64,000 nucleotides of DNA. Source: Claveliimonas bilis (GTDB lineage: Bacteria > Bacillota > Clostridia > Lachnospirales > Lachnospiraceae). Made by a program: the position numbers and the translations under genes. The stretch lies in the NCBI RefSeq assembly GCF_030296775.1, contig NZ_AP027742.1:2170001-2234000 (forward strand). Direction: 5' to 3'. Below are positions 9,679 through 53,154 of the stretch, in pieces (within the stretch, counting starts at the first letter, position 1; each line of letters starts with the position of its first letter). The notes below the pieces were generated by a model, which was not told where the DNA came from, searched no databases, and saw only the letters and a list, made by a program, of their open reading frames with translations.

Positions 9679-9810
9679 GAACAAAGAGTTCCGCAAGAGG
9701 AACTCTCGCGCCGAGCGCGGTCGCTTTAACGGCAACTTCCACTTCGCGCGAGTGCGCATCCCGCGGAGCGTTTTATTCGATAGGGAACGGAGTTCCTATT
9801 GAATAAAAAA
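9679..9810 (+). repeat. Dispersed multi-hairpin repeat, copy 1 (divergent)
   Basis: This 132-bp copy begins GAACAAAGAGTTCC and ends in a TTTTATTC...GAATAAAA hairpin. It contains a GC-rich core with several short stems. Compared with copies 2 and 3 it has paired substitutions in the terminal stem (T-A to C-G, A-T to C-G) and an inverted loop in the first hairpin (GCAAG instead of CTTGC). It lies inside the thrS leader, between the T-box terminator and the thrS ribosome-binding site, so it is transcribed as its reverse complement. No open reading frame is present. Confidence 0.9.
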
Positions 9811-10097
9811 GCACCCCTGCCCGACAGCTTATGCTGCCTGTTGCAAGGGTGCGGTCTTTCGCACGGTTCCACCTTCATTTTTCACTTTGGTCTAAAAAAC
9901 CTGTCCCCTTAACGCGGAGTTACGATGCTGCATACTGAAAGCTTCTGCTTCGTTGGGCAGCACAGCTCGGGAATGGTTTTCTGTCATCTTCTGCTATAAG
10001 AGGCTTCCACCAACTGCCCCTCTCTCTGGATAGTTCACATGCATACTCTTTTCCGTCTCTGCTTTTATCTTTTTAATTTTCACTGACTGACCAGCTA
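9800..10097 (-). promoter_or_regulatory. T-box leader (threonine) of thrS
   Basis: The minus strand carries the T-box sequence AGGTGGAACCGTGCG (plus 9860-9874), whose TGGA bulge would pair with the UCCA end of uncharged tRNA-Thr. Upstream are the stem I landmarks: an AGTA loop-E-like motif, a distal GGTGGAAG loop and a specifier context GAA-ACC-A, where ACC is a threonine codon. The competing terminator is GCACCC...GGGGTGC followed by TTTTTT. Uncharged tRNA-Thr should favour the antiterminator and read-through into thrS. Confidence 0.93.
9805..9852 (-). terminator. T-box conditional terminator of thrS
   Basis: GCACCCTTGC pairs with GGGCAGGGGTGC around a CAGCATAAGCTG hairpin and ends in TTTTTTATT. 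Its U-tract coincides with the right end of repeat copy 1. Confidence 0.88.
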
Positions 10098-38253: not shown

Positions 38254-38389
38254 GAACAAAGAGTTCCCTTGCGGAACTCTCGCGCCGAGCGCGGTCGCTT
38301 TAGCGGCAACTTCCACTTCTCGCGAGTGCGCATCCCGCGGAGCGTTTTATTTAATAGGAAAGAAATTTCCTATTAAATAAAAAAACAAT
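38254..38389 (+). repeat. Dispersed multi-hairpin repeat, copy 2
   Basis: This 136-bp copy is identical to copy 3 at 53019. It opens with GAACAAAG and an AGAGTTCC/GGAACTCT hairpin (loop CTTGC). A GC-rich core has GTCGC/GCGGC and other short stems. It ends with a 16-bp perfect stem TTTATTTAATAGGAAA / complement with loop GAAA. Its right end provides the last codons and the stop of the truncated cas3 gene on the opposite strand. Confidence 0.92.
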
Positions 38390-38809
38390 TAATTCCGGCA
38401 GAAACAGTTCGCTTTTATATTCACTATAGTCCTCAAACTGTCTCTTCATCCTCCCCTGCAGCGTCGGCATATCGCTGCTGTCATTTGCAAATCCCCCATC
38501 CGGTATCCCGGAATGATGTCCTGCAATGCAATATTCCATCATCAGCGCCATAGGACCAGTTGTATAATTCTCACAGGCAGCCAAGGCTCCACAGGTAGAA
38601 TGCTCTACCCGGATATTGGCACCATTGATCCTTTTCGTAAAAGATTCCTGGTATTTCCCTACATCATGAAGCAGCCCTATTACAAACAAAAAGTCTTTCA
38701 ATTCAGGAATAGAAAATTTCCGACATAACTCAGCCGTATTCTCACAGTGAACTTTTACTGTTTGTATCGAACCTGTAAACTCATTTCTGTGAGCTACATA
38801 TTTTTCCAA
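38351..38809 (-). pseudogene. Truncated Cas3 HD-nuclease domain (CRISPR remnant)
   Basis: Cas3 HD nucleases degrade DNA in type I CRISPR interference. Residues 1-139 match the start of a Cas3 HD domain, with the metal-ligand pattern His21, HD48-49 in LLHDVGKYQ, His70 in VEHSTCGA and GHHSG at 97-101. The remaining HD part, the helicase and the accessory domain (over 550 residues) are gone. The last 12 residues are encoded by the dispersed repeat, so insertion or deletion at that element broke the gene. It uses a TTG start. No other cas gene or CRISPR array is in the window. Confidence 0.85.
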
Positions 38810-51340: not shown

Positions 51341-51516
51341 CTATCATCATTCAGTAAATCATATGTAAAGTTTTTGTAAGAAACATACATGTATGCGAAT
51401 CATTCTTTGACGCTTTCATCCATAAAAAAGTGTCTTCGACACTTCAACTCCCCCGCCCCTCAATCTTGAGGGGATTAGGGGTTTCTTTTTGTGTCTTTTC
51501 CCTTCATAATAGTCTT

Positions 51517-52698
51517 ATGAATATCTTACAGAAGATTTTTACAGACCATTTTGAAGAAATGCTCTATATCCAACATCCTCGTGACTCTGTCATCGAAAAT
51601 GTAGAAAAAATGATCCATTACGGCGATCCCTCTTTTGGTGGCACCATGTATGCCTGCCCTTCCTGCGGTAATCTTAAGTTTCTCCCTTTTCGCTGTCACT
51701 CCCGCTTCTGTCCTTCCTGCGGTAACATGTATTCCATTGACAGGACTACCTCGATGTCTTTTAAAATCATCCATGTCCAGCATCTCCATTGTGTGTTTAC
51801 CATTGCCAGAGAACTCCGTCCTCTGTTCCTGCAGGACCGTTCGCTCTTAAATTGCCTCTTTTCTGCTGTCAACCGCGTCGTCTCCCGTATGTTCCTCAAA
51901 GATAACTATGCTGAACGCTTTACTCCTGGTTTTATCTGTGTCCTTCATACCTTTGGCAGGGATCTGAAATGGAATCCTCATATCCATTGTCTCGTTTCCG
52001 AAGGCGGCGTTGGCCTCTCTCTGCGCTGGCGCCACAAAAAGCACTTCAACTACAAACTCCTGCGGGATTCTTTCCAGACCGTTCTTCTCAACGAATTACA
52101 TTCCAGGATCGGTGACCCTTTTAAAAAGCTTAAGGCTTCTGTCTATGCCGATCACAAAAATGGTTTTTACGTCCGGGCCTTACCCAACAAATGTAATCCA
52201 TCTCACGTGATCAAGTACATTGGCCGTTATCTCGGACGCCCTGTGATCGCAACCTCCCGCATTGATTCTTATGATGGCGAATTTGTTACCTTTCATTATC
52301 ATCGGCATGAAGATGAAAAACTGGTCTCTGAAACCATCCCGGTCCTTGATTTCATAGCCAGGCTTACCCAGCATATCCCGGAAAAACATTTCAAAATGAT
52401 CCGTTACTATGGCATCTATGCCAGGCACCGTAAATCTGACAAATACCTCCGCCGGGCTATTTCAAGAGAAAAGCATAAGATATTTCTTTCTTTTAACCGT
52501 TGGCGGGATTCCATCCTGCATTCCTTCGGATATGATCCTTTAAAGTGTCCTTCCTGTGGTACGACCATGCTTTTTCTTGAATTATATTTCAACCACAGAC
52601 CGGTTCCTTTGCATGAATTATACGAAAAGGTTATGCGAAAGCATCGGTGCCGGGCTCCTGCCTCTTTTTCTTTTCTTCCATCGTCTCCTTCTGCGTGA
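51517..52698 (+). CDS. IS91-like family transposase (HUH, Y2)
   Basis: The 393-residue protein has an N-terminal zinc-ribbon region (CPSCGNLKFLPFRCHSRFCPSC), the HUH motif HIH (His155, His157) and the twin catalytic tyrosines Tyr234 and Tyr238 in YIGRYLG. A further zinc pair CPSC lies near the end. This is the rolling-circle Y2 layout of IS91 transposases. I choose the ATG at 51517; an in-frame extension to 51430 covers the palindromes of the left end. All catalytic residues are present, so it may be active. Confidence 0.92.
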   Translation: MNILQKIFTDHFEEMLYIQHPRDSVIENVEKMIHYGDPSFGGTMYACPSCGNLKFLPFRCHSRFCPSCGNMYSIDRTTSMSFKIIHVQHLHCVFTIARELRPLFLQDRSLLNCLFSAVNRVVSRMFLKDNYAERFTPGFICVLHTFGRDLKWNPHIHCLVSEGGVGLSLRWRHKKHFNYKLLRDSFQTVLLNELHSRIGDPFKKLKASVYADHKNGFYVRALPNKCNPSHVIKYIGRYLGRPVIATSRIDSYDGEFVTFHYHRHEDEKLVSETIPVLDFIARLTQHIPEKHFKMIRYYGIYARHRKSDKYLRRAISREKHKIFLSFNRWRDSILHSFGYDPLKCPSCGTTMLFLELYFNHRPVPLHELYEKVMRKHRCRAPASFSFLPSSPSA

Positions 52699-52723
52699 TA
52701 CAATCAATATATCTGATACAGAA

Positions 52724-52933
52724 ATGGAGGCGGACAATATCAAACGAATTACTGAGGCAGAACTTGCAAAGGAACTTCGGGAACAGTATATAAAAAATCC
52801 TCCAGAAGGTATGACCTCTGATGAAATCCGTGATATGAGCGACGATGACCTTTTGGACATGGATTATTTCTTACACGAATTTGACGATCTGGATGATGAC
52901 GGTTTTGGCGAAGAAGGTTTTTATATTTTCTAA
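52724..52933 (+). CDS. Small acidic companion protein of the IS91-like element
   Basis: This 69-residue frame starts 25 bp after the transposase stop and is extremely acidic in its second half (DEIRDMSDDDLLDMDYFLHEFDDLDDDGFGEEGF). The N-terminal half is helical and mixed in charge. I recognise no family. Its place inside the element suggests it travels with the transposase, perhaps as a DNA mimic or regulator. No strong ribosome-binding site is visible beyond ACAGAAATGGAGG within the start, so translation may rely on coupling. Confidence 0.6.
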   Translation: MEADNIKRITEAELAKELREQYIKNPPEGMTSDEIRDMSDDDLLDMDYFLHEFDDLDDDGFGEEGFYIF

Positions 52934-53018
52934 AACAAAATCGTCTGTTTCCTATGCCCGCCTTTGTGCGGGCTAGTTTCATTCAAGAGTTCAGCAAAAG
53001 TTGAACTTTCCTATAAAG

Positions 53019-53154
53019 GAACAAAGAGTTCCCTTGCGGAACTCTCGCGCCGAGCGCGGTCGCTTTAGCGGCAACTTCCACTTCTCGCGAGTGCGCATCC
53101 CGCGGAGCGTTTTATTTAATAGGAAAGAAATTTCCTATTAAATAAAAAAACAAT
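53019..53154 (+). repeat. Dispersed multi-hairpin repeat, copy 3
   Basis: This 136-bp copy is identical to copy 2 at 38254, including the terminal 16-bp stem and the trailing AAAAAAACAAT. It lies 46 bp after the last hairpin of the IS91-like element and about 20 bp before the DUF2798 gene, so it is in that gene's upstream region. Confidence 0.92.

Follow-up and report, generated by a model that had tools for sequence, protein, structure and literature searches.

The window, which is the whole stretch of 64,000 nucleotides analysed here (C1:2170001-2234000 of the closed 3.11 Mb genome G000 of Claveliimonas bilis), contains three copies of a short repeated element, the third of which adjoins a transposon unit of the IS91 family. 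The following features were located, with the strand of each copy being the terminator-first one.

9679..9813, (-) strand: copy 1 of the element (blastn, 89%; covariance model, 151.6 bits)
9842..10068, (-) strand: T-box leader, whose terminator T-run contains copy 1 (Rfam RF00230, 100.8 bits; junction read)
38254..38389, (-) strand: copy 2 of the element (blastn; covariance model, 149.9 bits)
38260..38280, (-) strand: H6 of copy 2, the distal hairpin, followed by TTTGTTC on the (-) strand (fold; pairing)
38281..38339, (-) strand: conserved GC-rich core of copy 2, with H2, P3 and H4 (fold; core alignment; pairing)
38345..38382, (-) strand: H1 of copy 2, an AT-rich palindrome with AGGAAA/TTTCCT at its terminator-proximal end (fold)
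about 51424..53018, (+) strand: IS91-family unit, with left end AAAAAAGTGTCTTCGACACTT and right end TTTCCTATAAAG abutting copy 3 (ends placed by comparison with L362, L363 and L371; limits inferred)
51517..52698, (+) strand: Y2 HUH transposase gene, with NPHIHC and YIGRY motifs visible (PF04986, 2.3e-40; PF14319, 1.2e-21)
52724..52933, (+) strand: small ORF downstream of the transposase gene, resembling by eye ORFs of L362 and L363 and possibly encoding an accessory protein (no Pfam match)
53019..53154, (-) strand: copy 3 of the element, equal to copy 2 in sequence (blastn; covariance model, 149.9 bits)

The three copies in the same orientation that had been described in the original prediction were recovered (about 9679-9813, 38254-38389 and 53019-53154); by blastn, copies 2 and 3 show no difference over 136 bp, and copy 1 is 89% identical to them. 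Copy 1 is flanked by the T-box on one side and by a threonyl-tRNA synthetase gene on the other, and the Y2 transposase ORF lies ~320 bp from copy 3. An ORF at 38351-38809 begins within H1 of copy 2, its true start probably being downstream, and it presented a weak HD-domain match (PF01966, 1.2e-4; Cas3_HD, 3.9e-4, below the cut-off). When the whole genome was searched with copy 2, 28 blastn matches were obtained at E ≤ 1e-3, corresponding to 22 places, full or partial, because six were reverse-strand echoes of the palindrome; the genome thus contains more copies than the three originally described. Nine of the 22 places span at least 105 of the 136 bases, and the others mainly consist of H1 plus the first half, or are remnants. 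A second strain of the same species (G296, whose element loci are those of C. bilis c-25, NZ_AP024845) carries all three window copies at the same sites, and copies 2 and 3 were therefore already identical before the two strains split, which corrects the age implied by the earlier view of recent movement or gene conversion; differences between the strains were found at other sites.

Structure and distribution of the element

Read terminator-first, which is the minus strand for the window copies, the element follows the order host hairpin, T-run with A, H1, H2, P3 enclosing H4, H6 and T-rich tail (e.g., TTTGTTC, TTTATT or TTTTTTA). H1 is an AT-rich palindrome with ATAGGAAA. Both strands fold better than 200 of 200 shuffles (z = -6.3 and -4.5). 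The sequences of H1 and H6 diverge widely between genera with their pairing kept, and the core GATGCGCACTCGCGCG...CGCGCTCGGCGC is conserved between genera. Pairing was evaluated in 90-92 elements against 500 shuffles of the partners, a type of test that is inflated by related sequences. Under these conditions H6 was paired at 98.4% (60.7% when shuffled), followed by H4 at 92.7% (84.8%), inner P3 at 89.0% (85.0%) and positions 7-17 of H1 at 79.1% (64.0%), with none of the 500 shuffles reaching the observed value for any of these helices. The outer P3 register, as tested, was only 2.7% paired and was dropped. A weak strand test on the terminator-first strand revealed no overall G.U excess among the helix mismatches, with A.C and G.U counts of 68 vs 18 in H1, where recurring positions supply much of the count, 7 vs 6 in H4 and 2 vs 6 in H6. 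In the pairing analysis itself, the G.U and A.C mismatches numbered 10 and 17 in H4 and 11 and 13 in inner P3.

Two ideas on the terminator-proximal half were discarded. A guide function, in which the A-run behind H1 would pair with the target T-run, gave 67.0% pairing compared with 64.7% for shuffles (highest shuffle 66.8), which is hardly above composition. H1 as a copy of the target sequence was rejected because copies of genome G265 at different sites share a common H1. Separately, the elements L206-L211 of genome G002 were found to have the core and H6 in common and wholly different H1 palindromes, each well paired; an older age or a special process of change might explain these H1 differences.

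At E ≤ 1e-4, a covariance model (R1; 18 sequences, 28 pairs) matched 10 of 11 genomes from the genus; at E ≤ 1e-3, with strict filters and no more than 11 candidates scored in each genome, it placed the element in at least 151 of 299 Lachnospiraceae genomes. In a sample of the phylum, R1 matched only two of 348 genomes, both of them Lachnospiraceae. The search with such a model, which had been proposed together with the original prediction, thus yielded further copies in Lachnospiraceae relatives, whose stems vary with compensating changes and so support the reading of a selected structure. Similarly, the paired changes described for the AT-rich stem of copy 1 (T-A to C-G and A-T to C-G) were seen by reading to keep the stem, together with one G.T. 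No match of the element to Rfam 15 was obtained at the gathering score in the window, nor at E ≤ 1 in five loci, nor in the Rfam scans of 20 loci from the own genome and 20 from other genera. Two exact core patterns gave no matches in viral contigs, and partial blastn matches to the element came from 2 plasmid records and 9 labelled as phage. In the literature search, no description of this element family was recognised.

Mobility and insertion target

Empty sites, also suggested as a check, were found in three occupied/empty pairs between the two strains (L045 vs L126; L041 vs L151; and L070 vs L152, the last occupied in G296 and empty in G000), demonstrating that the element is mobile. In two of the three, TTTTTTA is already present at the insertion point of the empty site; the third reads TTTCGTTA, so the junction there needs a second change. 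No clear target duplication was seen at the three sites, where up to three T are ambiguous and the third junction is altered, and no terminal inverted repeats were found, the ends being different. A MITE of the DDE type was rejected since the ends differ and the three empty sites present no clear duplication. Behind the T-run of the empty counterpart L126 (G296) lies a palindrome of its own (ATTTGCCCGGAAA...GCCGGGCAAAT), which may be what is left of an older element. In the closed genome G265, three identical copies occupy different sites, with others at 99.3%, and 13 of 36 copy pairs are at least 98% identical; the nine copies read each lie behind a different flank, these flanks being hairpins by eye. 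Additionally, elements form arrays (L182, L183 and L254), and at L033 and L081 one element sits behind the H6-type hairpin of another.

The element inserts in one orientation, into a T-run directly behind a terminator-like hairpin and often after TTTTTTA. A hairpin with a score of at least 18 and its end no more than 3 nt from the T-run was present at 70 of 90 elements (77.8%), two of the 92 having been dropped for short or masked flanks. By comparison, such a hairpin was present in 4.4% of flanks after shuffling and in 5.6% of those downstream; for T-runs elsewhere, the figures were 9.9% (3005 other T5-7 runs) and 20% (305 intergenic T-runs). The hairpin was weak or absent at the other 20 sites, including L046, copy 2 of the window (tested as L043) and two kin of the empty-site pairs, such as L041, whose site in the pair with L151 shows no clear stem. 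The original prediction was right about the repeat, its conserved structure and its mobility, but did not recognise that most insertions have a hairpin next to them, nor that a transposase gene adjoins copy 3. Some elements follow leaders called by Rfam: in the own genome, five of 20 element loci lie behind such leaders (3 T-box, 1 lysine and 1 TPP), and in other genera two of 20 (1 T-box and 1 TPP), the remaining loci of both sets having no leader at the gathering score. Among the proteins encoded near elements at 149 loci, the two largest clusters covered 7 loci each and were, by reading, threonyl-tRNA synthetase and an ABC transporter.

The IS91-family unit and its relatives

The proximal end could be seen in five Y2 loci and lies behind a stem and T-run in all of them (L371, L363, L366, L368 and, as judged by eye, L370); in four of the five, ATAGGAAA comes no more than a few bases after TTTTT(T)A. 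The relatives of the transposon thus start with TTTTT(T)A..TATAGGAAA behind hairpins, which is the proximal end of the element as well; the spaced motif had no match in 1,018,264 shuffled bases, and TTTTTTACTTTATAGGAAATT is common to L363, L371 and the element copy L213 of genome G172. The distal ends of the Y2 units consist of a hairpin plus T-run, like H6 of the element, and the distal hairpin with an A-run was observed in the window, L362, L363, L364, L365, L367, L371, L372 and L373. The Y2 transposons thus resemble the element at both ends, the terminator-proximal one being the same and the distal one of the same kind, and their target and orientation of insertion are also those of the element. 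The end of an element abuts a Y2-type end in the window, at L034 and at L299/L374; L374 (G110) presents the Y2-type end only, with no Y2 gene found by tblastn in that 5 kb. R1 gave no match at E ≤ 0.01 in 11 Y2-type loci, where the conserved GC-rich core was not found; ends and target alone are thus common to the element and the transposons. So far, a Y2 gene alongside the element is certain only for the window and its G296 counterpart. The ORFs of the paired-copy loci L180 and L181, where an autonomous element between copies was sought, included no recognised transposase. Two further observations concern single loci of this group. In the more distant L368 and L370 the transposase gene is oriented away from the terminator-proximal end, the reverse of the arrangement in the window, although the ends look alike; and at L371 the hairpin before the Y2 unit (GAATGTGCCAAGGCACATTC) equals a common H6 of the elements, with no element found there by R1.

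Transposons of the IS91 family move by a rolling circle, produce no target duplication, have no terminal inverted repeats and use one specific target adjoining one end, the tetranucleotide GAAC/CAAG in IS91. The unit beside copy 3 resembles them in its Y2_Tnp and zinc-binding domains, and the element in its lack of terminal inverted repeats and its single specific target beside one end, no clear duplication having been seen at its three empty sites, with up to three T ambiguous. The element differs, however, in being geneless, in its core and in a target made of a hairpin plus T-run instead of that tetranucleotide.

These comparisons suggest, with a probability of about 0.7, that the element is a non-autonomous, structured mobile DNA of the Lachnospiraceae and a satellite of an IS91-family (Y2 HUH) transposon, the link to the enzyme being drawn from ends, target and adjacency. 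Against this reading stand the lack of R1 matches in the Y2-type loci, the missing Y2 gene at L374, the 20 sites with a weak or absent hairpin, the altered junction of the third empty site and the fresher copies of RT-bearing genomes (RT, reverse transcriptase). In this model the Y2 transposase would work in trans: it would recognise the end hairpins of the element as single-stranded DNA and, in the manner of rolling-circle transposases, attach the AGGAAA end to the T-run at a hairpin site. The distal hairpin plus T-run of the element would mimic a terminator and provide a fresh landing site, which would explain both the tandem arrays and the adjacency of element and transposon; the conserved core may be needed in cis. 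The original prediction had left open whether the structure acts as RNA or, in single-stranded form, as DNA for a transposase; the latter is favoured because ends and target match those of an IS91-family HUH transposon and, by the weak strand test, there is no overall G.U excess. A bolder version is proposed tentatively, with the odds rather against it: a structure-targeted HUH system, in which the IS91-like Y2 enzyme would read terminator hairpins as DNA, the end hairpin of the satellite would rebuild the landing site after each insertion and the core would be an active cis cofactor, as DNA or RNA.

Competing explanations and known systems

Movement through RNA by a reverse transcriptase (RT) of the group IIC intron type, with the element being transcribed, ending at its own H6 terminator and being copied into terminator sites, is considered unlikely. 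According to an excerpt of one report (PMC10190682), group IIC introns are directed to a DNA stem with a T-rich stretch, the IBS1, behind it, a target like that of the element, and the RT element of c-25, judged to be of group IIC without tool classification, sits behind stems. Pairs at least 98% identical were found in 7 of 15 RT-bearing genomes and in none of 8 RT-lacking ones (p = 0.052), a hint of fresher copies that would fit a retroelement, obtained in a test prompted by an earlier observation on some of the same genomes. However, the presence of RT and element was not associated (both, 91; element only, 60; enzyme only, 74; neither, 74; p = 0.08), copies occur in genomes without an RT at E ≤ 1 (G172, G177, G256, G166, G212 and G174), including pairs at 97.7% in G172, and the ends of the element match the Y2 units instead. 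The identification of the element itself as a group IIC intron or derivative was rejected, since it is 130 bp long, has no intron ribozyme or RT and has no Rfam match. As to the RT elements themselves, near-identical copies (L220-L223 of G296; 456 aa), taken for a group IIC intron, also lie behind hairpins, and RT matches numbered 3 in the window strain and 8 in c-25.

It is more improbable still that some other, unidentified enzyme moves the element and that the Y2-like ends reflect common targeting only. The core is not common to the Y2 loci, which would suit such an enzyme, but motif and target are common with the Y2 units, and adjacency adds to them. A Y1 transposase (IS200/IS605 or RAYT) acting on a REP-like or palindrome-associated element has very little probability. 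The logic of Y1 systems is alike, with hairpins, no duplication, one orientation and a short target on the 5' side of the insertion, REP/RAYT being described as palindromic repeats associated with an HUH enzyme in an excerpt of the published account (PMC3733652), and pairs at least 98% identical occurred in 6 of 12 genomes with Y1 and 1 of 11 without (p = 0.069), also a hint. Nevertheless, REP elements are 20-40 bp long and carry a GTAG or CGTC tag, the presence of Y1 and element was not associated (both, 87; element only, 64; enzyme only, 78; neither, 70; p = 0.42), G000 has three Y1 genes with no element near any of them, and the closed G265, with its three identical copies, has no Y1 at E ≤ 1, which weakens this explanation. 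A regulatory RNA under selection at leaders, tuning expression from between attenuator and gene, would fit the leader loci and the covarying stems, but is equally remote given the loci without a leader, the strain-variable occupancy, the arrays and remnants, and the lack of an overall G.U excess.

Among other short repeats, the EFAR repeats of Enterococcus faecalis are about 170 bp long, have a fold and insert at stem-loop sequences, the target stem being largely lost upon insertion. Compared by description only, they differ from the element, whose target stem is kept. Additionally, bcr1 and other repeats of Bacillus cereus are portrayed in excerpts of one report (PMC6542083) as short, geneless and present in many copies, with mobile features, a TTTAT motif and an unknown mover, bcr1 being reported there as confined to the B. 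cereus group. As far as these descriptions go, bcr1 resembles the element in size, copy number, absence of a gene and T-rich motif; placement at terminators is a feature of the element here.

If the element is indeed a satellite of a terminator-seeking IS91-family transposon, it would represent a mobile DNA family that is large, apparently undescribed and found in a dominant gut bacterial family, and that follows the simple targeting rule of a hairpin plus T-run. IS91-type transposition would thereby be extended to structured DNA targets, and the element would provide a natural example of a satellite restoring its own landing site. Since some copies lie between attenuator and gene, their insertion may also have effects on genes for tRNA synthetases and on vitamin genes.
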